DNA of 64,000 nucleotides, taken from the NCBI GenBank assembly GCA_021773095.1, contig JAJFKR010000015.1, positions 124,001 through 188,000 of the forward strand. The letters run 5' to 3'. This document shows positions 4,297-35,737 of this stretch, in pieces. Position 1 is the first letter of the stretch. Each line of letters opens with the position of its first letter. The notes under the pieces were generated by a model. It did not search any database, had not been told where the DNA came from, and was given only the letters and a program-made list of their open reading frames with translations. The stretch comes from Woeseiaceae bacterium. Its GTDB lineage: Bacteria > Pseudomonadota > Gammaproteobacteria > Steroidobacterales > Woeseiaceae. Both the position numbers and the translations under genes were made by a program.

Positions 4297-5970
4297 ATGG
4301 CACAGTACATCTACACAATGAACCGCGTTGCGAAGGTCGTAGCGCCCAAGCGCCACATCCTGCGCGATATTTCACTGTCCTTTTTTCCCGGTGCCAAAAT
4401 CGGAGTGTTGGGCCTGAACGGTTCGGGCAAGTCGACACTTTTGCGCATCATGGCGGGTCTCGATACCGAGATTGACGGTGAAGCACGACCACAGCCGGGG
4501 ATAAAGATCGGCTACCTGCCGCAGGAACCCGAGCTCGATGCCGATAAGGATGTGCGCGGCAATGTTGAAGACGGCGTTGCCCAAACCAAAGCTCTGCTCG
4601 ACCAGTTCAACGCTATCAGCGACAAGTTTGCAGAGCCGATGAACGACGATGAAATGAATGCTTTGCTCGAAAAACAGGGCAAGCTGCAGGACGCGATCGA
4701 CGCCGAAGGTGCTTGGGAACTCGATCGCAAGCTCGAAATCGCTGCCGATGCGTTGCGTTTGCCACCGTGGGACGCAGATGTCACAAAATTGTCGGGCGGC
4801 GAGCGCCGCCGTGTTGCGCTGTGCCGCCTGCTGCTCTCACAACCCGACATGTTGTTGCTCGACGAGCCAACCAACCATCTCGATGCCGAATCCGTCGCCT
4901 GGCTTGAACGCTTTCTTGATGAGTATCCAAGCACCGTAATCGCGGTCACTCATGATCGCTACTTTCTCGATAATGTCGCGGGCTGGATCCTCGAACTCGA
5001 TCGTGGCCACGGCATCCCGTGGGAAGGCAATTACTCTTCGTGGCTGGAGCAGAAAGAGGACCGGCTCAGAAATGAGGAATCATCGGAGAAGGCCAGACAA
5101 AAAGCCATGGCGGCCGAGCTGGAATGGGTTCGCAGCAACCCGAAAGGCCGGCAGGCAAAATCAAAAGCGCGCCTGCGACAGTTCGATGAGATTTCGTCAG
5201 CACAATATCAAAAGCGTAATGAGACCAATGAAATTTATATCCCGCCGGGCCCTCGTCTCGGCGACGTGGTTCTCGAGCTCAATGACCTTAAGAAGGGCTT
5301 CGGCGACAAGCTGCTGATTGATGGTCTCAGCTTGCAATTACCACCGGGCGGCATCGTTGGTGTTATCGGGCCCAACGGTGCGGGTAAAACAACCCTGTTT
5401 CGAATGATCACAGGCGAGGAAAAACCGGATGCGGGTACATTGCGACTCGGCGAGACCGTACAACTGGCCAGTGTTGATCAGTCCCGTGACAGCCTGAACG
5501 ATGACAGAACCGTTTGGGAAGAGATTTCGGATGGCCTCGATCTTATTCAGGTGGGTAACTACGAAACATCATCACGCGCGTACGTCGGACGCTTTAATTT
5601 CCGCGGCCAGGACCAGCAAAAGAAAATCGGCCTGTTATCGGGCGGTGAGCGGAATCGCGTCCATCTTGCCAAAATGTTACGGGCGGGCGGCAACCTTTTA
5701 TTGCTCGATGAGCCCACCAACGATCTCGATGTAGAAACATTGCGGGCGCTCGAAGAAGCTTTACTCGAGTTTCCAGGCTCGGCCATCGTTATTTCGCATG
5801 ACCGCTGGTTTCTCGACCGCATCGCGACGCACATTCTCGCGTTTGAAGGTGATAGTGAGGTGACGTGGTTTGCCGGCAACTACGCCGATTACGAAGCGGA
5901 TCGGAAACATCGTCTGGGTGCCGATGCAGCAAACCCTCACCGGATAAAGTATAAGAGACTCACCGCCTAG
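4297..5970 (+). CDS. ettA: Energy-dependent translational throttle protein EttA (ABC-F)
   Basis: EttA is a soluble ABC-F ATPase that binds the ribosomal E site and gates elongation according to the ADP/ATP ratio. The start chosen, ATG 4297 ([11 protein letters not shown]), gives 557 residues, against about 555 in E. coli; an in-frame upstream start at 4126 would add 57 residues overlapping the divergent deacetylase gene. Two ABC domains are seen: Walker [10 protein letters not shown] and signature LSGGERRR, then GPNGAGKTT and LSGGERNR, both with LLLDEPTN. The EttA arm insertion lies in the first domain and the basic linker ([17 protein letters not shown]) between them. Confidence 0.97.
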
Positions 5971-25063: not shown

Positions 25064-25240
25064 AAAAATACTCCAATGGCGAAAATTGCTTCGATTGTTC
25101 TGCTTAGTTGCCGCTGACAACGAAGCGGTTACAGGCAAGTTGAAAGAACAAATACGGCGTGTGGGAACGCAACCCATGTAATATTGCTTGCAACCGACCG
25201 GTCACTATTGGCGCCCTGTATCCACACACTGGAGAAAAAC

Positions 25241-26893
25241 ATGAAAGCATCCGATCTGTTAGTCGAGTGCCTGGAAGAAGAAGGAATCGAGTACATATTC
25301 GGCGTGCCCGGAGAAGAAAACGCTGATTTCATGATGTCCCTGGAAAAATCGGCAAAGATCAAATTTATTTTGACGCGCCATGAGCAAGGCGCAGCATTTA
25401 TGGCAGAAATCTATGGTCGCCTGACCGGCAATACAGCCGGCTGCCTCGGGACTCTCGGGCCTGGCGCCACCAACTTGATTACCGGTGTCGCGGACTCCAA
25501 TATGGATCGTGCACCAATGCTGGTCCTGACCGGCCAGGGCGCAACAGACCGATTGCACAAAGAGTCGCATCAGATCATGGATGTCGTGAGTATGTTTGAA
25601 CCCGTGACCAAGTGGTCGACGACTATTCTCAATCCCGACACTATCCCGGAAATCGTCCGCAAAGCCGTACGTCTCGCGCGTACCGAAAAGCCGGGTGCCG
25701 TGCATATCGAATTGCCGGAAGATGTTGCAGAAATGGAAACTTCCAAAAAGCCGATGGCACCACGGCGCTTCCGGCGTCCGGTCCCCGACGCCAAAATTAT
25801 TGATGCGGCATTCACGATGCTAAAAAATGCGAAACGGCCAATAATCATCGCGGGAAACGGTTGCATTCGCAGGCGTGCCAGCAAACAGCTAAGAGTGTTT
25901 TGTGAGAAAACCGGTATCGGTGTTGTCAGTACATTCATGGCGAAAGGTTGTGTCGATATGGACGCAGACTACTGCCTGTACACCGTCGGTCTTGGCAGCA
26001 AAGACAGAATTTCGATGGCCATTGATGATGCCGACCTTGTAATCACGCTCGGCTTTGACATGGTTGAATACCATCCTCAACTGTGGAATGCGCGCGGCGA
26101 CAAGAAAGTGTTACATGCCGACTTCCTGCCCGCCGAGATCGATGAGTATTACCACCCGGAAACCGAGGTAATCGGTGATCTCGCACATACGCTGTGGATG
26201 TTGAATGAGTGCGTCGATGCTAAGAGCCTTCCGAAGTTCGACCTTGCGTTACAACATAAATGCCGGGATGAGATGACGGCGGATTTCGCCGAGTATAAAG
26301 ATGATAAGACGGAAGGAACGATCCGACCGCAAAAAGCCTTGTGGGATGCACGCCAGGTTATGGGGCCGGCAGACATACTTCTTTCCGATGTCGGCGCGCA
26401 CAAGATGTGGATCGCCAGGCACTATCAGTGCCACGAACCAAACACCTGCCTGATACCCAATGGCTTCTGCTCGATGGGCTTTGCTTTACCTGGCGCCATC
26501 GCGGCCAGTATCGTGCATCCCGAGCGACGGGTTCTCGCTATCGCCGGCGACGCCGGATTCCTGATGAACGTCCAGGAGATGGAAACGGCGAAGCGAATTG
26601 GCAGCAATATCACCGTCATGGTTTGGGAAGACGAGGAGTACGGTTTGATAGCGTGGAAGCAGGAAACCAGTTTCGGTCGCCATACCGACCTCTCTTTCGG
26701 CAACCCGGAGTGGACTACACTGGCGAAAGCTTTCGGCTGGAATGGACACTACGTGAAAGATGCTGCCGACTTGCTGCCGGCGCTTGACGCGGCACTTGAC
26801 GAGGAAGGTCCAAGCCTGATCGTTATTCCGATCGACTACCGCGAGAATCCACTGCTAACAAAGAAACTCGGAGAAATCACGTGCTCGATTTAA
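25241..26893 (+). CDS. Acetolactate synthase large-subunit-like ThDP enzyme
   Basis: A 550-residue thiamine diphosphate enzyme of the acetohydroxyacid synthase/AlsS family. Start ATG 25241 has GGAG 10 bases upstream and fits the family (MKASDLLVECLEEEGIEYIF). The catalytic Glu48 is in RHEQGAAFM. The ThDP/metal motif, normally GDG followed 25-27 residues later by N, reads GDA (436-438) and then WED with Glu463 in place of Asn. There is no regulatory small subunit next to it; instead it is translationally coupled to an aldehyde dehydrogenase. So it may not be biosynthetic AHAS, but a 2-oxoacid decarboxylase or carboligase. Confidence 0.85.
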   Translation: MKASDLLVECLEEEGIEYIFGVPGEENADFMMSLEKSAKIKFILTRHEQGAAFMAEIYGRLTGNTAGCLGTLGPGATNLITGVADSNMDRAPMLVLTGQGATDRLHKESHQIMDVVSMFEPVTKWSTTILNPDTIPEIVRKAVRLARTEKPGAVHIELPEDVAEMETSKKPMAPRRFRRPVPDAKIIDAAFTMLKNAKRPIIIAGNGCIRRRASKQLRVFCEKTGIGVVSTFMAKGCVDMDADYCLYTVGLGSKDRISMAIDDADLVITLGFDMVEYHPQLWNARGDKKVLHADFLPAEIDEYYHPETEVIGDLAHTLWMLNECVDAKSLPKFDLALQHKCRDEMTADFAEYKDDKTEGTIRPQKALWDARQVMGPADILLSDVGAHKMWIARHYQCHEPNTCLIPNGFCSMGFALPGAIAASIVHPERRVLAIAGDAGFLMNVQEMETAKRIGSNITVMVWEDEEYGLIAWKQETSFGRHTDLSFGNPEWTTLAKAFGWNGHYVKDAADLLPALDAALDEEGPSLIVIPIDYRENPLLTKKLGEITCSI

Positions 26894-28311
26894 TGCTTGA
26901 GAGCGGCATTCCGGCCATCGGCAGTTTATCCGTCACATCGCCATTTGACGGTCGGGAACTCCAACAGGTCGCGACAGCGGGGCCTGATCACGTTGCAGAC
27001 GCGTTGCGCGCCGCGTATTCAGGATTTCGCGACAGAGAGTCGTGGTTATCGATTCCAGAACGGATTGAAATTCTCGACAGGACTGCGGCGATTATGAGCA
27101 GACAAGTCGATGACCTCACGATGCTCGCAGCATCCGAAGGCGGTAAACCGTACAGTGATTCCAGGGTCGAAGTCATTCGGGCCATTGATGGCGTGCGTCT
27201 TTGTGCCGAATCTCTGCGCGCCCATTCAGGCTCTGTCATTCCGATAGGAAAGACTGCAGCAACCACGGGCAGGATTGCCTTTACGCAAAAGGAGCCGATC
27301 GGTGTTGTTGTTGCCGTGAGTGCTTTCAACCATCCGCTGAACCTCATTGTTCATCAGGTCGGTCCGGCGGTCGCGAGTGCTTGTCCGGTCATCGTGAAAC
27401 CTGCGGCGGACACGCCCTTGTCATGTTTGAGATTCGTCGAAATTCTCCGCGAGGCAGGATTGCCTGATTCGGCTTGCCAGGTAATCGTAACGAATGACCG
27501 CGATACAGCCGAGAGCCTGGTGACCGATTCGCGAGTCGGCTTTTTCAGCTTCATCGGCAGTGCTGCGGTTGGCTGGATGCTGCGTTCCAAACTTGCGGCT
27601 GGCGCACGCTGCGCACTTGAGCACGGTGGCGCAGCCCCCGCCATTCTTGTGGACCCGTTCGACACGGAGCTCGCGATTACGTCGGTGTTAAAAGGCGGCT
27701 TTTATCACGCAGGACAAGTCTGCGTATCCACCCAGAGAGTATTTGCGCCCTCCTCACTTGCTGAGGCCTTTGCGTCGGAACTCGCAAAACGTGCGGAAGC
27801 ACTCGTAGTCGGTGCGCCCGAAGACGCAGCTACCGAAGTCGGACCACTGATTCGCGCCAAAGAGGTCGACAGAGTGGCTGAGTGGGTCGATGAAGCTGTG
27901 GCCGCTGGTACGGAATTAATTTGCGGTGGCAAGAAGATATCCGAGAGCTGCTACGCCCCGACAGTGCTCCTTAATCCACCTGACGATGTTCGTGTCAGCA
28001 CTATGGAAATTTTTGGACCCGTTGTTTGTGTTTACGCATACGACAATATCGACGCGGCCATTCAGCAGGCGAACGCTCTGCCGGTAGCGTTCCAGGCATC
28101 GATTTTCAGCAAGGATACCGACGCTTCAATGCGCCTGTACAAGCGGCTTGACGCGTCCGCCATCATGATCAACGAACATACGGCCTTTCGCGATGACGTT
28201 ATGCCATTTGCGGGTCTGCGCGAGTCGGGCCTGGGCGTCGGTGGCATTCCCTACACGATGGAAGACATGCAAATCGACAAAATGATGGTAGTGAAATCAC
28301 CGGAGCTCTAG
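26881..28311 (+). CDS. NAD(P)-dependent aldehyde dehydrogenase
   Basis: A 476-residue aldehyde dehydrogenase superfamily member. Catalytic Glu247 (ALEHGGAAP) and nucleophile Cys281 (HAGQVCVSTQR) are visible, and the cofactor-site VSAFNHPLNLIVHQVGPA is typical. GTG 26881 has GGAG 7 bases upstream and overlaps the end of the ThDP enzyme gene by 13 bases; ATG 26893 (TAATG) is an alternative start. The tight coupling suggests that it oxidises the aldehyde made by the ThDP enzyme, which is inference. Substrate unknown. Confidence 0.9.
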   Translation: MLDLMLESGIPAIGSLSVTSPFDGRELQQVATAGPDHVADALRAAYSGFRDRESWLSIPERIEILDRTAAIMSRQVDDLTMLAASEGGKPYSDSRVEVIRAIDGVRLCAESLRAHSGSVIPIGKTAATTGRIAFTQKEPIGVVVAVSAFNHPLNLIVHQVGPAVASACPVIVKPAADTPLSCLRFVEILREAGLPDSACQVIVTNDRDTAESLVTDSRVGFFSFIGSAAVGWMLRSKLAAGARCALEHGGAAPAILVDPFDTELAITSVLKGGFYHAGQVCVSTQRVFAPSSLAEAFASELAKRAEALVVGAPEDAATEVGPLIRAKEVDRVAEWVDEAVAAGTELICGGKKISESCYAPTVLLNPPDDVRVSTMEIFGPVVCVYAYDNIDAAIQQANALPVAFQASIFSKDTDASMRLYKRLDASAIMINEHTAFRDDVMPFAGLRESGLGVGGIPYTMEDMQIDKMMVVKSPEL

Positions 28312-28404: not shown

Positions 28405-28992
28405 GTGTCAAATCGAACCAGGTCGTTACCACCGCTTAGCCAACCGCTCTATGTCATAAGAGAGATGCGTTACCACGAAGCATCGCGTCAGGGACTCGGA
28501 CTGATTCTGGCCGCTGCATTCGCGATTGTCGCCAATCCCACACCAATCACCCTGTTCCCGGCCGCTGTTCTCGTCATAATCGGCGTCGGAATTCGTCTGT
28601 GGGCCTCCGGCTTTATTATCAAGAACGCCGAATTGGCGACGCACGGCCCGTACGCTTTTGTCAGGCATCCACTTTATGTGGGAAACATTCTCATCGTGTT
28701 TGCTTTTGCTGCAGCATCAGGTTTCTGGTGGCCATTTCTTGTCGTATTTTCCTTCCTCGGCTTTTACTACCCAACGGCGATCGAATATGAGGACCGGAAA
28801 CTGGCCACCCTGTTTGGTAACAACTGGTTCGAGTACGCGAAGCACACGCCGGCATTGCTACCAAATTTTAGCCGCCGAGACAGGAAGTTTTCCGGTAGCT
28901 GGTCTTTGAAGAAAAGTCTGGCCGGCAATCTGGAGCTGGTTGTCACCATCTACCTGCTGGCGTGCTTCGCCTACATCTGTCTTCAGTTATGA
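28405..28992 (+). CDS. Isoprenylcysteine carboxyl methyltransferase-like membrane protein
   Basis: A 195-residue integral membrane methyltransferase of the ICMT/PEMT-like family. The S-adenosylmethionine motif is seen (GPYAFVRHPLYVGNILIVF, and the C-terminal YEDRKLATLFGNNWFEYAK). Bacterial members methylate small substrates or phospholipids, mostly unknown. The start is GTG 28405; no ATG in frame fits before the first helix. It ends overlapping the next gene (ATGA). Confidence 0.83.
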   Translation: MSNRTRSLPPLSQPLYVIREMRYHEASRQGLGLILAAAFAIVANPTPITLFPAAVLVIIGVGIRLWASGFIIKNAELATHGPYAFVRHPLYVGNILIVFAFAAASGFWWPFLVVFSFLGFYYPTAIEYEDRKLATLFGNNWFEYAKHTPALLPNFSRRDRKFSGSWSLKKSLAGNLELVVTIYLLACFAYICLQL

Positions 28993-29657
28993 ACAGGCCC
29001 GGCATTACTGAGGCAGATGCTATTGCTTGTGTCAGAGATGGCAGGCGACTGGATCGCCGTGGCTACCAGGGCGGCATCCACATCGGCAATATTGGTGGCC
29101 ACAAAATCCTGGTGAAGTCAGCTGCGGAAAAAGGCATGACCTCTTCCATGTGCCGCTGGTTTTTGCGGCGTGAATACCGCGTTTACCAGCGGTTGACAGG
29201 CATCAAGGGGATTCCGCACTGTTACGGATTTTTCGCAGGTCGCTTTCTGGTCCTTGAGTATATTGACTCGAAGACGATGCGACAGGCGAGCCTCGGGAAT
29301 CGGCAGGTTTTCTTTGATGAGATGTTCGAAATTATCGAATCAATCCATGCGCGCGGCGTAGCACATGGCGATCTGAAACGAAAAGACAACATTCTGGTCA
29401 GGGAAGGAATGCACCCGTGCATACTTGATTTCGGCGTGGCGGCGGTCAAGAAAGACGGCCTGCACCCTTTTAATCACTTCTGGTACAGATTCGCTAAACA
29501 GCACGACCTAAACGCCTGGCTGAAACACAAGTACGATCGTAAATTTCAGAATCTCTCGTCTGCCGATGCTGATTATTATCAGCCAATGCGTATCGAAAAA
29601 ATGTCCCGCGTGATCAAACGCGCGTGGTTTACGTTCAAAAACGGTCTTGTCTCCTAA
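28989..29657 (+). CDS. LPS/Kdo-type protein-kinase-like sugar kinase (WaaP/KdkA/RIO-like)
   Basis: A 222-residue eukaryotic-kinase-like fold. Visible kinase elements: a glycine-containing N-lobe with lysine (GGHKILVKS), the catalytic loop HGDLKRKDNILV and the metal-binding DFG in CILDFGVAA. This layout is that of LPS heptose kinase WaaP, Kdo kinase KdkA and InaA-like proteins. Position next to kdsB and the waaA-kdsA operon favours phosphorylation of Kdo or inner-core sugar. ATG 28989 overlaps the previous gene's stop (ATGA); 4-base convergent overlap with kdsB. Confidence 0.78.
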   Translation: MNRPGITEADAIACVRDGRRLDRRGYQGGIHIGNIGGHKILVKSAAEKGMTSSMCRWFLRREYRVYQRLTGIKGIPHCYGFFAGRFLVLEYIDSKTMRQASLGNRQVFFDEMFEIIESIHARGVAHGDLKRKDNILVREGMHPCILDFGVAAVKKDGLHPFNHFWYRFAKQHDLNAWLKHKYDRKFQNLSSADADYYQPMRIEKMSRVIKRAWFTFKNGLVS

Positions 29658-30421
29658 CGCACCTTCATGCCACCGTCCTCACCCATTATCCTTGCGACAA
29701 TTGCCAGGTCCTCCGCGGTGTCGACACCCCGGGCGATGGGTATCGTTACTCGCCCAACGCGCAGCGTGATGTTGAGCCACAGCGCTCGTAATTGCTCAAG
29801 CCTCTCGATTTGCTCCAGCTCACAAGGTCCGGCGTCCACCAGTTGCCGCAGCACATGACGTCGATACGCGTAAATTCCATGATGCCGCAAAGCGACTGCG
29901 CCGAGCATTGCGTTCGACTCATCATCGCGGCAAAAGGGGATCGCTGCGCGGCTGAAGTAGAGCGCATTGTCTTTCATATCCGTTATGACTTTGGCGAAAT
30001 TTGGATTTTCAATATCCGAGATGGCATCGAAAGCGCTTGCCAGAGTGGCCATCCCAACCCCATCGGAGTCGAGAAGACCCGCGCATTGAGCGATCAATGC
30101 AGGCGGCATCAATGGCTCATCTCCCTGCACGTTTACCACGACCAAATCGTCCGGCCATGAATTCAGATCGCAAACCTCAGCGATGCGGTCTGTTCCGGAC
30201 TGGTGCTCCGATCGTGTCATACATACGTTGGCGCCGAAGCCCAGTGCCGCTTCCTGAATGCGTTCGTCGTCTGTCGCAATCCAGACCTCCTTCGCACCAC
30301 TTTGTAATGCCAGTTGATGGACGTGCCAGATCATTGTTTGGCCAGCGATCAATCGCAACGGCTTTCCTGGCAAGCGCGTACTCGCATAGCGAGACGGAAT
30401 TACTACAATAAAGTCATTCAA
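29654..30421 (-). CDS. kdsB: 3-deoxy-manno-octulosonate cytidylyltransferase (CMP-Kdo synthetase)
   Basis: KdsB activates Kdo with CTP to CMP-Kdo for the Kdo transferase. 255 residues; all classical motifs are intact: IPSRYASTRLPGKPL, HQSGTDRIAEV, VNVQGDEPLMPP, ALYFSRAAIPF, HHGIYAYR and GVDTAEDL. The start is TTG at 30421, sharing its base with the ATG of the divergent waaA paralogue; no closer ATG is in frame. It opens the LPS sugar block by divergent transcription. A second 8-amino-Kdo specific variant is known in some marine bacteria, but no kdnAB is near. Confidence 0.93.
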   Translation of the reverse strand: MNDFIVVIPSRYASTRLPGKPLRLIAGQTMIWHVHQLALQSGAKEVWIATDDERIQEAALGFGANVCMTRSEHQSGTDRIAEVCDLNSWPDDLVVVNVQGDEPLMPPALIAQCAGLLDSDGVGMATLASAFDAISDIENPNFAKVITDMKDNALYFSRAAIPFCRDDESNAMLGAVALRHHGIYAYRRHVLRQLVDAGPCELEQIERLEQLRALWLNITLRVGRVTIPIARGVDTAEDLAIVARIMGEDGGMKVR

Positions 30422-31788
30422 TGCATTCTTTCCAAACGAATCGATTTGCTACCATACGTCTTGAGCTACCCCAAGAGTCGGCCTTGTTCATACTAGATAC
30501 CTTTTACGCCTTGCTGTTCGTGCTGCTATCACCGTGGTGGTTGCTGATGTTAGCAATAAAGCCGGCATTTCGGGCTGGTTTTGCCGCCCGATTTGCTCTT
30601 CGAGGCGTTGCTGCCGCATCGACTGAGTCGATCTGGCTGCACGGCTCGTCCGCTGGCGAAATAGATCTTCTGCGGCCGTTGGTGCAAATGATCGAACAAC
30701 GCCCGGATCATTGCAGCATTGTTGTATCGGCGTTCTCGATATCCGGCTACACAGCGGCTAAGAAGCTGTTTCCACAACACCGCGTTATTTATTTTCCCGC
30801 CGATTTCTCGCCTGTAATCGGGCGCTTTCTGAAAGCACTAAGACCTCGTTTGATCGTGCTTGTCGAATCCGAATTCTGGCCAAACTTCATCGCTACCGCC
30901 AATAAATCCGGCATTCCAACCTGCGTGCTGAACGGCAGGATGTCGCACAAATCCTTTCAGACACACCGGCGAACGCGTTTGATTCCATGGGCGCTCAAGA
31001 AAGTATCTCTGCTTGCGGTTCAGACTGCGGACGACGCATCTCGATTCCGCGATCTGGGCGTCGCATCGAGTCGCATCACGGTGACCGGCAACATGAAGTA
31101 CGACTTGCAGGATCGGGGTAAATCGCAAGACTGGGAGCAGGTTCGGCACTCGTTTCGTGAACGCTATAAGCTCGATAAAAACATACCGGTTTTGATCGGT
31201 GGCAGTATCCACCAGGGCGAAGATCAAGCACTGGCCTGGGCCTACCAGAGACTGATATCAGAGGGCTATCGCTTGCGCATGATAATCGTACCTCGATATC
31301 CGGCCGAAGCGTTGGCTGTCAGCCGTACGCTGAAAAGCCATCATCTGCTCGCTGCGCTCAGCTCGGAGGCGTCCGCTAAGGAAAGTGATTTCTTCGTTGA
31401 CCCGCAGCGCGTTCTGATCGTTGATACAATCGGTGAGCTAAAAAACTATTACGCCACATCGGATTTCGCTTTTGTTGGGGGCAGCCTGCATTTTCGCGGT
31501 AGTAATAAAGGCGGTCACAACCTCATGGAACCGGCTATCCTTGGGCTGACTGTGATGTTTGGACCGCACAACTATAGCTTCCGGGAAACAGTTCGCGATT
31601 TGCTTGAAAACCGTGCCGCATTACTGGTACATGACCGGGAAGAAATTTATTCCAGTATCAAGGGTCTTCTGGATAAGCCGATGACTGCGGTGGACCTCGG
31701 TAAGCGGTCTCGCGAAGTCATATTGAACAACCGCGGCGCAACGGATCTAAACTTTGAGTTAATTAAGCAATACATGCCGTTGAGCTAA
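30421..31788 (+). CDS. Kdo transferase paralogue (WaaA/KdtA family, GT30), copy 1
   Basis: A 455-residue GT30 family protein. Family features: N-terminal membrane segment (about residues 23-46, ILDTFYALLFVLLSPWWLLM), catalytic Glu80 in HGSSAGEIDLL (VGE in typical WaaA), VESEFWPNF, LNGRMSHKS, the two-domain fold of GT-B enzymes and GPHNYSF at the end. WaaA moves Kdo from CMP-Kdo to lipid A. A second, more typical waaA lies 4 kb downstream in the same operon, so this copy may add another or a modified residue. The ATG 30421 start is doubtful; TTG 30484, just before the helix, is an alternative. Confidence 0.85.
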   Translation: MHSFQTNRFATIRLELPQESALFILDTFYALLFVLLSPWWLLMLAIKPAFRAGFAARFALRGVAAASTESIWLHGSSAGEIDLLRPLVQMIEQRPDHCSIVVSAFSISGYTAAKKLFPQHRVIYFPADFSPVIGRFLKALRPRLIVLVESEFWPNFIATANKSGIPTCVLNGRMSHKSFQTHRRTRLIPWALKKVSLLAVQTADDASRFRDLGVASSRITVTGNMKYDLQDRGKSQDWEQVRHSFRERYKLDKNIPVLIGGSIHQGEDQALAWAYQRLISEGYRLRMIIVPRYPAEALAVSRTLKSHHLLAALSSEASAKESDFFVDPQRVLIVDTIGELKNYYATSDFAFVGGSLHFRGSNKGGHNLMEPAILGLTVMFGPHNYSFRETVRDLLENRAALLVHDREEIYSSIKGLLDKPMTAVDLGKRSREVILNNRGATDLNFELIKQYMPLS

Positions 31789-31827
31789 ATGATGCCGCGG
31801 CCTGCAACAGGGGTTTTAAATCAAATC

Positions 31828-32661
31828 ATGAATACAGTAAAACACGTCAATGTCGCCGGTATCGATTGTGGATCGGACGATCTTTTCCTGATTAGCGGTC
31901 CGTGTGTCATTGAGGAAGAATCAATGATGATGAAGACTGCGGAGCGTCTAAAGGAGATTGCGACCCAGCTCAATTTGCCGCTTATCTTCAAGTCGTCGTT
32001 TACCAAGGACAATCGCAGTTCACTCGATTACTTCCAGGGGCCCGGGCTGGACGAAGGCCTGCGAATACTGGCGAGGATCAAGGCGGAATTTGAACTGCCA
32101 GTGCTGACGGACATTCATTATCCTGCGCACGCTGTGCCTACAGCAGAGGTTGTCGACGTCATGCAAATTCCAGCGTACTTGTGTATGCAGACGGAACTCG
32201 TAACTGCTGCCGCTAAAACCGGCTGTGTCGTGAATCTCAAACACGGACAATTCATCGCACCAGAAGGCATGTCCAAGCCGGTGCAGAAAATCGAAGCTGT
32301 CGGCGGGGACAAAATTATTCTCACCGAACGCGGCTACGCCTTTGGGTACAACGACCTGATCGTCGATCCGCGCAGCTTTTTCATGCTGCGCGAAGTCGGC
32401 TATCCGGTCGTATTCGACGTCACGCATACGATTCGAAAATACGGTATACCGAGCAAGGATCCGAAGGGCGGCACACGTCAATACCTGAAGGTTCTGGCTC
32501 GCTCAGGTGTTGCTGCCGGTATCGACGGACTGTTCGTCGAGGCGCACCCGAATCCGCCCGACGCCCTGTGCGATGCTGCCAGTCAGTATTATCTGGACGA
32601 TCTGGCCGAATTTTTAAAACCCTTGATCGACATTCATCAACTTGTTCGCAACACCGCCTAA
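31828..32661 (+). CDS. kdsA: 3-deoxy-8-phosphooctulonate synthase, metal-dependent class
   Basis: KdsA condenses PEP with arabinose 5-phosphate to Kdo 8-phosphate. From ATG 31828 it has 277 residues, numbering almost as E. coli KdsA. The metal-site residues of the Aquifex-type class are present: Cys26 (GPC, Asn in E. coli), His200, Glu238, Asp249; the A5P-site NRSS is at 62-65. Unusual: Met120 replaces the Arg that E. coli and A. aeolicus have in the CRQTD/ARQTD segment, and the KKPQF/KKGQF segment reads KHGQF. A start at 31789, right after the waaA stop, is possible. Confidence 0.92.
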   Translation: MNTVKHVNVAGIDCGSDDLFLISGPCVIEEESMMMKTAERLKEIATQLNLPLIFKSSFTKDNRSSLDYFQGPGLDEGLRILARIKAEFELPVLTDIHYPAHAVPTAEVVDVMQIPAYLCMQTELVTAAAKTGCVVNLKHGQFIAPEGMSKPVQKIEAVGGDKIILTERGYAFGYNDLIVDPRSFFMLREVGYPVVFDVTHTIRKYGIPSKDPKGGTRQYLKVLARSGVAAGIDGLFVEAHPNPPDALCDAASQYYLDDLAEFLKPLIDIHQLVRNTA

Positions 32662-32682: not shown

Positions 32683-33714
32683 ATGGAACTATACCTAGAC
32701 TCAGTCAATTTTCAGGAAATCGAAGAAGCATTCAATTTGGGCTTCGTAACAGGCCTGACCACGACCCCTACTTTCATGCACCGTCATGGCATCACCGATG
32801 TCGATGGCGCCATCGTAGAATTATCAAAGATGGTGCCGGAATTACAGGTCGAGGCTCTGGGCGATACGCACGACGAGATCATTAATGAAGCACACAGACT
32901 GCTGGACCTGCCGCTCGCGCTAAAACCGGTTTTCAAAGTACCCATTTCAGAGGTTGGCGTACGTGCGTGCAAAACCTTAACCGATGAGGGACACCGCGTT
33001 AACGTCCATCTTATCTATACGCTCAATCAGGCGTATATGGCCATGGCGGCGGGAGCAGCGTTTGTTTGCCCGCTGGCCGGTCGTTTTCAGGACGAGGGTC
33101 ACGACGCCATCGCATTGTTCGAGCAATGCGTCAACGTCGTCGAAAAATACAACTACGCGACGAAGATCATGTTCTCGTCAGTCAGGTACCCGGAGCATGT
33201 ACGCCAGGCGCTTCTCGCGGGTGTACACGTTTGCACCATACCGTGGGGCGTGATGCGAAAATTGACGAAGAATGCACTAACGACCGTCGGCACGAATCAA
33301 TTCGTCGAACACACACGGCTGCTGACTTATCGAGTTGGTGAAGTGATGCGCGAAGAAAATCCGTTGAGCAAGAAGTCGGATACGGTAACGAGTGCCATGA
33401 TCAGGATGACCGAATCCCGACTGGGCGCAGTCACGGTGGTCGATGACAATGGCAACGCGGTGGGTATGTTTACCGACGGAGATCTGCGACGCAAATTGCA
33501 GGATCAGGGTTCGGACGTTGTCAGTTCCACCCTCGAAGATCTCGGCTTCTCCGAAAATCCGGTGACGATCACCGACGATGCCCTGCTCAATGATGCTGTT
33601 GCACTGTTTGAGAAAACGCACATCGACTCGATTATCGTCCTCAATAAAGACAAGCCCGTGGGCATTCTCGATATCCAGGACATCGTCAACCTCGGCCTGG
33701 TCGGGCGCGACTAG
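32683..33714 (+). CDS. FSA-type transaldolase fused to a KdsD-type CBS pair
   Basis: A 343-residue two-part protein. Residues 1-215 match fructose-6-phosphate aldolase/transaldolase of the FSA type: MELYLD start with Asp6, Schiff-base Lys85 in FKVPIS (same number as in E. coli FsaA), and Ser166. But the transaldolase signature TTNP is TTTP (Thr28 for Asn), and the Tyr131 site is Leu. Residues about 217-340 are two CBS motifs; FTDGDLRRKL is the signature found in KdsD/KpsF arabinose-5-phosphate isomerase. The sugar-isomerase (SIS) domain of KdsD is absent. AAGG ribosome site; 21 bases after kdsA, so it takes the place of kdsD. Confidence 0.9.
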   Translation: MELYLDSVNFQEIEEAFNLGFVTGLTTTPTFMHRHGITDVDGAIVELSKMVPELQVEALGDTHDEIINEAHRLLDLPLALKPVFKVPISEVGVRACKTLTDEGHRVNVHLIYTLNQAYMAMAAGAAFVCPLAGRFQDEGHDAIALFEQCVNVVEKYNYATKIMFSSVRYPEHVRQALLAGVHVCTIPWGVMRKLTKNALTTVGTNQFVEHTRLLTYRVGEVMREENPLSKKSDTVTSAMIRMTESRLGAVTVVDDNGNAVGMFTDGDLRRKLQDQGSDVVSSTLEDLGFSENPVTITDDALLNDAVALFEKTHIDSIIVLNKDKPVGILDIQDIVNLGLVGRD

Positions 33715-34433
33715 TGAGCGCAGCCGAGAAGGATCGATCTGGCTCAATTGCTGCTGAATTTCAGGCGATCGGAGCCAGATTTATCCTGCCCATCGAGGAA
33801 TTATCAAAACGGCTTGGCAATTGCCGGGCCGTAGTCTTCGACTGGGACGGCGTTTTCAATAGTGGCCAGAAAGGTGATACAGCAACGACCGGATTCAGTG
33901 AACCGGACTCGATGGGCACCAATATGCTCCGTTATGGGCTGTGGCGTGAACGGGGTGAGCTGCCGTTTACAGCCATTATCAGCGGCGAAAACAATGCCAG
34001 CGCAATCGCTTTCGCCAAGCGTGAACATCTGCACGAAGTTCATACCGGAGTACAGAACAAGCGCCTCGTCATAGAGCATATCTGTCAAGTTGAAGGCCTG
34101 AGTCCGGACCAGATCGCTTGTGTATTTGACGACATCAATGACTTGCCCATGGCCGAATTGTGTGGGCTTAGACTTATGGTCCGCAGAAATGCCAATCCGT
34201 TACTGTCCCGATACGCTGAGAAACGCTCGCTTTGCGACTACATTAGTGGAGCAGATTCGAGCAGTTACGCCGTCCGGGAAATTTGTGAATTGCTGCTCGG
34301 ACTTCTCGGTATCTATGAACAGGTGCTGGACTCGCGAGTCGCCAGCGACGACGATTACCAGACCTATCTGCAGCAGCGGCAATCGGTTGTTACGGGATTT
34401 TTCGGCAAGGATGGGCCTGGAAAACCGGAATGA
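33714..34433 (+). CDS. KdsC-like HAD phosphatase
   Basis: A 239-residue HAD-superfamily protein resembling Kdo-8-phosphate phosphatase KdsC, with an N-terminal extension of about 35 residues. Motif I FDWDGVFNSG (Asp43 and Asp45), Ser90 in IISGEN (motif II; Thr in KdsC), Lys117 in QNKRLVIEH, and FDDINDLPMAE (Asp139, Asp140, Asp143) are visible; NANPLLSR and AVREICELL correspond to the end of KdsC. In the Kdo route KdsC removes the phosphate from Kdo-8-P. The GTG start at 33714 overlaps the preceding stop (TAGTG). An altered loop (SEPDSMGTNMLRYGLW) may mean a changed substrate. Confidence 0.82.
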   Translation: MSAAEKDRSGSIAAEFQAIGARFILPIEELSKRLGNCRAVVFDWDGVFNSGQKGDTATTGFSEPDSMGTNMLRYGLWRERGELPFTAIISGENNASAIAFAKREHLHEVHTGVQNKRLVIEHICQVEGLSPDQIACVFDDINDLPMAELCGLRLMVRRNANPLLSRYAEKRSLCDYISGADSSSYAVREICELLLGLLGIYEQVLDSRVASDDDYQTYLQQRQSVVTGFFGKDGPGKPE

Positions 34434-35737
34434 TCTATTCTCGGAATCTTCTTTATACCATTGGCGCCTACGTTTATTTGCCCTGGGCATTGTTGCATCT
34501 AATTAGACGTGGCATACGCTATCGACCGTATTTTCGGCGCTGGCATGAGCGTTTTGGCTATGCCCCACGAGTCGATACCGAAAGCCTGATCTGGGTGCAC
34601 GCCGTCTCTGTTGGCGAGGTTCGAACGATCGTTCGTCTGGTTGAGCATCTGCAGCGAGAATACTCTGACAGTCGCATTCTCGTGACTACTATGACGCCGA
34701 CCGGGTCGACACAGGTCAGACAGTGCCTCGGCGATGAGGTATTACACTGCTATATACCCTACGACCTTCCGGGATCCGTTCGCCGCTTTCTGGATCGGGT
34801 ACAACCAAAGCGTGCTTTCATTGTTGAAACAGAGTTCTGGCCTAATATTTTCCGGCTCTGTAGTGATCGCTCGATTCCGTTGCTGCTCGTCAATGTGCGT
34901 TTGTCACCAAGATCATTTGAGGGCTACCGACGATTTCCACGCTTCACACGCAACATGTTGTCCAAAGTGGCGATGCTGGCGGTACAGTCGGAGGGAGATG
35001 CGGAAAGATTGCGAGCGCTCGGCGCACCCGAAGACGTCATGCGCGTCACGGGCAACTTGAAGTTTGATGCCTTCCTGCCCGACGACCATGCGGATAAAGC
35101 GGCGGTATTGCATCGAAACTGGGGCGAGTCAAGACCTGTCTGGATCGCTGCCAGTACCCACGAGGGCGAAGAAAAAATAGCGCTTGACTCGTTTCAGGAG
35201 TTACGGCGACAACATCCCAGGCTGCTATTGGTATTAGTACCGCGCCACCCGGAACGTTTTTCCCGCGTCGCGCGGTTATGCGAACGCGATGGCCTGAATG
35301 TCATTTTGCGCAGTGAGTACCCGGAGGCTATTCCGGACAACACGGACGTGCTGCTCGGCGATACGATCGGCGAATTACACCAACTGTATGCGGCGGCGAA
35401 CGTTGCCTTTATCGGTGGCAGCCTGATTCGGCACGGCGGGCATAATCTTGTCGAAGCAATGGTGGTGGGTGTGCCCACGGTATTTGGCCAGCACGTGTTC
35501 AACTTCGAACAGAGCAGTAACATCGCTTTGGATCGCGGCGCCGCTACGCAGATTCGCGACGGTAGTGAGCTTGCTGCGGCAGTCGGTGCCTACCTGAGTG
35601 ATTCCGCGCTACATGCGCGCGCGTCACAGGCCGCTACGCAGGTGATCGACGACAATCACGGGTCGCTACAGGCGACACAGGACCTGATTCAACAAACAGT
35701 GGGGCACGATAGCAACATGGAGTGGAGACAGCGATGA
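34430..35737 (+). CDS. waaA: 3-deoxy-D-manno-octulosonic acid transferase, copy 2
   Basis: A 435-residue GT30 Kdo transferase with all typical segments: N-terminal membrane stretch (about residues 8-27), catalytic Glu63 in HAVSVGEVRTI, VETEFWPNIF, NVRLSPRSFEGY, and FGQHVFNFEQ near the C-terminus. It transfers Kdo from CMP-Kdo to lipid IVA. It is closer to classical WaaA than the first copy. ATG 34430 overlaps the KdsC-like stop (ATGA), and its own stop overlaps the next start (ATGA), so it is translated as part of one operon. Confidence 0.95.
   Translation: MIYSRNLLYTIGAYVYLPWALLHLIRRGIRYRPYFRRWHERFGYAPRVDTESLIWVHAVSVGEVRTIVRLVEHLQREYSDSRILVTTMTPTGSTQVRQCLGDEVLHCYIPYDLPGSVRRFLDRVQPKRAFIVETEFWPNIFRLCSDRSIPLLLVNVRLSPRSFEGYRRFPRFTRNMLSKVAMLAVQSEGDAERLRALGAPEDVMRVTGNLKFDAFLPDDHADKAAVLHRNWGESRPVWIAASTHEGEEKIALDSFQELRRQHPRLLLVLVPRHPERFSRVARLCERDGLNVILRSEYPEAIPDNTDVLLGDTIGELHQLYAAANVAFIGGSLIRHGGHNLVEAMVVGVPTVFGQHVFNFEQSSNIALDRGAATQIRDGSELAAAVGAYLSDSALHARASQAATQVIDDNHGSLQATQDLIQQTVGHDSNMEWRQR

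Follow-up and report, generated by a model that had tools for sequence, protein, structure and literature searches.

A transaldolase fused to a KdsD-type CBS pair beside kdsA: a putative arabinose 5-phosphate-forming enzyme in Kdo synthesis

Introduction

Kdo is near-universal in the lipopolysaccharide (LPS) of Gram-negative bacteria, and the supply of arabinose 5-phosphate (A5P) by KdsD is regarded as the standard first step of its synthesis. The fusion protein described here resembles the KdsD/KpsF/GutQ enzymes (TIGR00393, PRK10892) in that it adjoins kdsA and a KdsC-like gene in many loci and carries a CBS pair with the motif FTDGDLRR, but it has no SIS isomerase domain; a barrel of the class I aldolase/transaldolase type forms its catalytic half. 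With the small transaldolases of the TAL/MipB type (T. maritima 1vpx, B. subtilis 3r8r, T. acidophilum 3s0c) it shares ~30–33% identity over ~210 residues and a TM-score of ~0.9 by target length. Lys85, D6, E57, N107, R134, S166 and R168 are common to the fusion and nine stand-alone transaldolases, whereas N28 has become T, T109 H, S129 C or T, F131 L and A165 S, and a CBS pair has been added. FsaA of E. coli has the same fold and Schiff-base lysine, but it is a more distant relative, and the fusion differs from it in having a CBS pair and in lacking the Tyr131 proton shuttle.

FsaA condenses glycolaldehyde and glyceraldehyde 3-phosphate (G3P) to A5P (PMC6298115, PMC9947464), with a KM of 0.2 mM and a kcat of 16/s for the glycolaldehyde condensation (PMC6298115), and according to PMC9947464 A5P is the only product that it yields from this pair. 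Both papers, in the parts available, present this aldolase reaction as part of synthetic pathways. No description of the fusion was found in the literature searched, which took in few subscription papers; its parts are known, whilst their union in one protein and a natural function as a stand-in for KdsD seem to be new.

Domain make-up and fold of the fusion

The window, by which we mean the whole 64,000-nucleotide stretch of DNA analysed, encodes the fusion within a compact group of Kdo genes:

29654–30421, minus strand: kdsB, CMP-Kdo synthetase, divergent from the operon (TIGR00466, 258 bits)
30421–31788, plus strand: first waaA-like gene, a divergent Kdo transferase (PF04413, E 8.6e-52; PRK05749, 301 bits, under the 438-bit cut-off)
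31789–32661, plus strand: kdsA, Kdo8P synthase of the metal type (Cys39), in the subtype that accompanies the fusion (TIGR01362, 320.6 bits, cut-off 314)
32683–33714, plus strand: transaldolase/FSA-CBS fusion, putative A5P-forming enzyme, 343 aa
32683–33309, plus strand: transaldolase/FSA domain of the fusion, residues 1–209, with the Schiff-base Lys85 (TIGR00875 on 1–209; Foldseek match to 1vpx)
33319–33702, plus strand: KdsD-type CBS pair of the fusion, approximately residues 213–340 (TIGR00393 on 213–329; KdsD model on 212–340; PDB 4o9k, 3k2v, 3fna)
33714–34433, plus strand: KdsC-related HAD phosphatase (FDWDGVFNSG), probable Kdo8P phosphatase (TIGR01670, 41.9 bits; KdsC, 41.4 bits; each under its cut-off)
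34430–35737, plus strand: second waaA-like gene, a Kdo transferase nearer the standard type (PRK05749, 495 bits, above the 438-bit cut-off)

An earlier, sequence-only reading of this DNA had described the protein as an FSA-type transaldolase joined to the CBS pair of KdsD with the SIS part absent, an architecture that Pfam and NCBIfam bore out. Pfam places TAL_FSA (PF00923) on residues 3–201 (E 9.7e-33, 114 bits against a cut-off of 27), finds two CBS stretches (E 2.2e-17) and detects no SIS domain in the protein. In NCBIfam, fsa_talC_mipB (TIGR00875) covers residues 1–209 at 146 bits, under its 246-bit equivalog cut-off, and the KpsF (TIGR00393) and KdsD (PRK10892) models match residues 213–329 (66.6 bits) and 212–340 (61.7 bits), in both cases with the CBS part of the model only, from model position 152 on in TIGR00393. 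An AlphaFold2 model built from 39 fusion sequences (mean pLDDT 90, pTM 0.65) was matched most closely in Foldseek by the T. maritima transaldolase 1vpx (TM-score by target length 0.93), and a profile of eight fusions searched against the PDB scored 141 bits to 1vpx, 69 bits to the A5P isomerase CBS pair 4o9k and 57 bits to FsaA (1l6w). Judged by this Foldseek match and the scores to 1vpx and 1l6w, the catalytic half is closer to the small transaldolases than to FsaA.

Over its full length, FTDGDLRR included, the CBS pair can be aligned with its counterparts in E. coli KdsD and in the KdsD of the source genome, and it matches the A5P isomerase CBS structures 4o9k, 3k2v and 3fna; its proposed KdsD-like character is thus upheld by curated models, PDB matches and alignment alike. 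The ligand held in 4o9k is presumably CMP-Kdo. By this likeness, an end product of the Kdo pathway such as CMP-Kdo may act on the CBS pair of the fusion.

The operon and the second Kdo route of the source genome

Downstream of the divergent kdsB, the genes run in the order divergent waaA-like gene, kdsA, fusion, KdsC-like HAD gene and second waaA-like gene, with intergenic gaps of −4 to +21 nt; kdsA ends 21 nt upstream of the fusion, and the HAD gene overlaps the end of the fusion by 1 nt. The HAD protein has no Pfam match at E ≤ 0.001, and because its TIGR01670 score lies below the KdsC cut-off (41.9 against 107 bits) we can only infer its role as Kdo8P phosphatase. Only the second of the two waaA-like genes passes the curated cut-off; the first, whose homologues precede kdsA in loci of the window's family (f1) and of a second family (f6), may add further Kdo or a different sugar. 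The two genes represent two types, and their homologues in f1 and f6 loci are ~29–33% identical across types. Beside kdsB, on the other strand, lies a small protein-kinase-like gene (28962–29657; PF00069, PRK12274), which from its sequence could be a candidate sugar or Kdo kinase. Upstream of the operon, at 25184–28311, are acetolactate-synthase-like and aldehyde dehydrogenase genes (named by eye), which are probably unrelated to the fusion because they were unmatched in nine fusion loci of eight other genomes, some of these loci being short.

The source genome, a 3.41 Mb MAG that is 89% complete, holds a further set of Kdo genes. The sequence-only reading had counted a complete SIS-type kdsD elsewhere in the genome as half of what would speak against it, and such a gene was found (371 bits; yrbG-, kdsC- and lptC-like neighbours, named by eye), along with a second, standard kdsA (401 bits). 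These two genes rule out a simple replacement of KdsD in the window's organism: the placement of the fusion "in the place of kdsD" holds for the operon and fails for the genome. With a full kdsD and a standard kdsA standing elsewhere, the window operon constitutes a second Kdo route, one that was probably acquired. The kdsB of the window is the sole TIGR00466 match in the genome (E ≤ 1e-15). The fusion is also the only PF00923 protein found in this MAG, and the organism may therefore be without an ordinary transaldolase.

Distribution of the fusion and exclusion of KdsD

The fusion was present in nine of the 149 genomes searched, a number that counts the window's own: four of the 91 that belong to the window's family and all five that belong to family f6. 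In G132 it is split over two contigs. A contig scan returned at least 588 stretches with the search patterns, at least 502 of which encode fusion relatives; the loci of the best 80 of these were kept, seven of them from genomes already among the nine. By record title, these best 80 belong to Gammaproteobacteria, Desulfobacterota and other "Deltaproteobacteria", Scalindua, a Nitrospira MAG and many Bacteroidota. The fusion tree is ordered mostly by phylum (seven label changes against a minimum possible of four), and the nearest named rows to the window fusion are Woeseiaceae MAGs. Within the 80 loci, kdsA lies ≤400 nt from the fusion in 55 and a HAD gene does so in 51, with the two found together in 43, whilst a waaA-like gene occurs anywhere in the locus in 33 and kdsB in 8; other LPS-type genes, named by eye, also stand near the fusion. 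SIS-KdsD was found in none of the 80, some of which end at contig ends and 74 of which have >1000 nt upstream.

The genomes themselves gave a similar picture. No SIS-KdsD over the cut-off was present in 49 of 59 fusion genomes (four f1, five f6 and 50 further genomes from the best 80), although the KdsD-less ones are mostly draft MAGs; the other ten, the window's included, keep a full KdsD. Divided by source, KdsD was retained in 4 of 4 f1, 0 of 5 f6 and 6 of 50 further fusion genomes. The five f6 genomes are 92–98% complete and have a single KdsA each, and the KdsD-less strains include Raineya orbicola (G182), Thermoflexibacter ruber (G184) and Thermonema rossianum (G187).

A sample of 198 Bacteroidia genomes drawn by class (G168, G180 and G187 overlap with the 50) contained a full-length, high-scoring fusion in 34, SIS-KdsD at E ≤ 1e-30 in 113 (104 above the cut-off, two full-length just below it and seven comprising just the SIS part). 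KdsA was present at E ≤ 1e-55 in 143 of the genomes (138 above the cut-off). Among these 143 KdsA-bearing genomes, 109 had KdsD only (101 above the cut-off and eight lower-scoring), 33 had the fusion only, none had both and one had neither. The Fisher p-value for this exclusion is ~1e-31, which is too small given shared ancestry, though the pattern is nearly complete. The 55 KdsA-less genomes included one with a strong fusion (G349, in which KdsA was not detected), four with KdsD, five with a divergent or split fusion (G346 being in both of these groups) and 46 with none of these. The single KdsA-bearing genome without SIS-KdsD and without a strong detected fusion, G370, is either incomplete or represents a third solution.

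The pattern expected of a KdsD substitute, a fusion with no SIS-type kdsD over the cut-off in the same genome, was seen in 49 of 59 fusion genomes, and no genome among the 143 KdsA-bearing Bacteroidia had both a strong fusion and KdsD. As a statement about many genomes the proposed replacement of KdsD has strong support; for the window's genome it does not hold. Because the distribution is near-exclusive in Bacteroidia, the fusion and KdsD probably share a product. We consider it likely that the fusion took over from KdsD and forms A5P through a Schiff base under the regulation of its CBS pair.

Active site

In an alignment of 81 distinct fusions (80 sequences after near-copies were merged), D6, T26, T28, E57, K85, N107, H109, L131, R134, S165, S166 and R168 are invariant, the count for Thr28 being in part a product of the search, since this residue belonged to one of its two patterns; position 129 carries C in 75 sequences and T in the other six. 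Lys85, Thr28 and Leu131, all three singled out in the sequence-only reading, are accordingly constant in the aligned set. N28, T109, S129, F131 and A165 are present in all nine stand-alone transaldolases compared, of which seven come from fusion genomes, so that Asn28, Ser129 and Phe131 of the small transaldolases are all replaced in the fusion (T28, C/T129, L131).

The available portion of PMC13259622 assigns roles to the corresponding residues of FsaA: Asp6 and Asn28 contact the donor, Asn28 and Ala129 stabilise dihydroxyacetone, Gln59, Thr109 and Tyr131 hold the catalytic water, with Tyr131 transferring a proton, and Ser30, Arg134, Ser166 and Lys168 form the phosphate region. Compared with these roles, the barrel of the fusion keeps its Schiff-base lysine and phosphate site (K85, R134, S166 and R168 invariant), whilst the donor site and the catalytic-water site have been rebuilt, the Gln59-Thr109-Tyr131 network being absent, with E57, H109 and L131 in 81 of 81. 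The suggestion that Thr28 and Leu131 signal a changed active site was well founded, and the change extends to H109 and C/T129. As the Tyr131 proton shuttle is replaced by Leu, the fusion is not simply an FsaA. With the phosphate region kept and the donor and water sites rebuilt, it would suit a donor that lacks the C1 hydroxymethyl group, in other words a glycolaldehyde unit.

Proposed reaction and the source of the two-carbon unit

We propose that the catalytic half, descended from small transaldolases, would form a Schiff base on Lys85 and act on the C2–C3 bond of an aldopentose 5-phosphate, with G3P in the phosphate site (R134, S166, R168). The A5P would then pass to the partner KdsA, the KdsC-like phosphatase, KdsB and WaaA in turn, and the KdsD-type CBS pair would control the fusion. 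The family and active site of the protein point to aldol-type chemistry, and by analogy with FsaA the formation of A5P through C–C bond chemistry is plausible; on chemical reasoning, A5P is fructose 6-phosphate (F6P) minus C1, with the stereochemistry that FSA enzymes would make. An imine-based conversion of ribulose 5-phosphate to A5P was rejected on similar grounds, since a ketose C2 imine cannot hydrolyse to an aldose and the phosphate would lie one carbon out of register.

Free glycolaldehyde is our preferred, though only tentatively held, source of the two-carbon unit. In its favour, KdsA would pull A5P away with PEP. A glycolaldehyde-to-A5P shunt in a Calvin cycle setting was, however, estimated to need >1 mM glycolaldehyde (available text of PMC6298115), and the affinity of FsaA for glycolaldehyde was considered too low for in vivo flux (available text of PMC9947464).

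A sub-case of the same explanation draws its carbon from ribose 5-phosphate (R5P), and would make the fusion an R5P 2-epimerase working by retro-aldol cleavage, which we regard as possible but rather unlikely. Lys85 would form an imine with R5P, the C2–C3 bond would be cut to give G3P and a bound glycolaldehyde enamine, and the two would be rejoined as A5P with no release of glycolaldehyde. R5P and A5P share the spacing of F6P from imine carbon to phosphate and so, on chemical reasoning, would fit the kept phosphate site. The fusion shares E57 with the stand-alone transaldolases, and at position 131, where FsaA has Tyr, it has Leu and they have Phe; both features favour a bound intermediate; the new H109, in place of T109 in 81 of 81 fusions, would suit an intermediate that stays bound. 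Furthermore, no glycolaldehyde-supplying gene was recognised by eye among the recurring neighbours of the fusion, whereas R5P is always available. Against this, the literature searched held no record of such an activity, and R5P has the erythro configuration, not the threo one that transaldolases favour in their products.

In its widest form, the proposal is that hundreds of Gram-negative bacteria (at least 502 stretches, of which the best 80 were examined) obtain the sugar that opens the dedicated route to Kdo from a Schiff-base enzyme of transaldolase descent and not by isomerisation of ribulose 5-phosphate, most boldly through an R5P/A5P 2-epimerase and otherwise through a natural A5P aldolase; put so broadly, we hold it to be a speculative claim that is more probably wrong than right. 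In many Bacteroidota, Desulfobacterota-type bacteria, Scalindua and Gammaproteobacteria, a replacement so widespread would close a gap in the Kdo pathway. It would also be a case of an aldolase converted to a new sugar-phosphate job with the regulatory domain of the old enzyme retained, and it would offer enzyme engineers a natural A5P-forming aldolase or epimerase. The proposal is directly testable in cultured species.

The partner KdsA and the identity of the product

The KdsA proteins of the fetched loci fall into two clear sets, a special set of 65 rows (61 after near-copies were merged), with scores of 362–598 bits against the window KdsA, and a standard set of 12 rows, 11 of which score 217–262 bits, the twelfth being E. 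coli. All special rows have A61 replaced by D, R120 by M and Q205 by R together with a rewritten loop after H202, and most also have E98 replaced by Y, F117 by Y and K139 by H, whilst K55, K60, N62, R63, S64, D95, K138, R168, H202, E239 and D250 are kept in all. The window KdsA carries the subtype residues as D74, Y111, Y130, M133, H152 and R216; it passes the TIGR01362 equivalog cut-off for Kdo8P synthase and belongs to a separate subtype. Calling the subtype by TIGR01362 score alone proved only rough, as some KdsD-only genomes also score 324–343 bits.

These replacements speak against our preferred explanation. R63, S64, R120 and Q205 are residues that we take to hold the phosphate of A5P in known structures (no list of KdsA contact residues was found in the literature searched), and the changes R120 to M and Q205 to R, with the altered loop after H202, could mean that the partner KdsA uses another acceptor. 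The fusion would then make a different aldose phosphate and the special KdsA a different ulosonic acid, leading to a Kdo analogue. This reading, improbable in our view, draws on the special KdsA being altered at positions 61, 98, 117, 120, 139 and 205 and in the following loop, and on the subtype remaining special where kdsA stands away from the fusion, in the eight KdsD-less genomes where it was fetched. The exchange of R120 and Q205 for M and R nevertheless retains one Arg, and the phosphate site may for that reason persist.

The content of individual genomes also bears on the product. In G155, G169 and G170, draft genomes with no detected KdsD, the fusion is accompanied by both a special KdsA and a standard KdsA (A61, R120, Q205); the fusion is the sole visible source of A5P for that standard KdsA, which makes A5P its likely product, although in draft genomes a KdsD may have been missed. 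Two Bacteroidia genomes, G313 and G352, resemble these three by score only. In the one-contig MAG G194, a full KdsD is combined with the special KdsA alone. Both Kdo routes occur in ten fusion genomes, and the seven of these tested for KdsB have one each, that of G194 being broken by a stop; overall, KdsB was found in 53 of 56 genomes tested and not found in G154, G174 and G180. The dual-KdsA genomes, G194 and the single KdsB favour A5P over a different sugar, though they fall short of proof, and on the sequence evidence as a whole A5P is probably the product of the fusion. G169 and G170 are Candidatus Scalindua, anammox bacteria in which the fusion and two KdsA types occur with no SIS-KdsD over the cut-off (loci L165, L169, L114 and L115).

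Stand-alone transaldolases in fusion genomes

That the fusion is an ordinary transaldolase of the pentose phosphate pathway, with CBS domains and an LPS operon acquired by chance, is very improbable. Its position as the sole PF00923 match in the 89% complete MAG of the window would agree with such a role, but six Bacteroidia fusion genomes and G095 hold a separate stand-alone transaldolase (N28, T109, S129, F131), and 32 of the 34 strong fusion genomes in the Bacteroidia sample have at least one further profile match. All four of these residues are lost in the fusion, and the exclusion of KdsD would be left unexplained. The active-site residues and the separate transaldolases led us to reject this role.

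Divergent fusions

Four Bacteroidia genomes without detected KdsA encode divergent FSA-CBS fusions of 35–37% identity (L202:4777–5781, minus strand; L203:4389–5390, minus strand; L204 at ~4430–5458, minus strand; L205 at ~4506–5648, plus strand). These have lost the catalytic lysine (R, R, S and R at position 85) and Arg134 but kept FTDGDLRR, and on these residues they are apparent pseudo-aldolases. They lend some colour to the view that the fusion is a non-catalytic regulator with a borrowed fold, which is hardly credible for the main group, where Lys85, D6, R134, S166 and R168 are intact in 81 of 81 sequences and the KdsD-less genomes need a source of A5P. The neighbours of the divergent fusions in L202 and L203 are a peptidase-like and an alkaline-phosphatase-like gene (named by eye).
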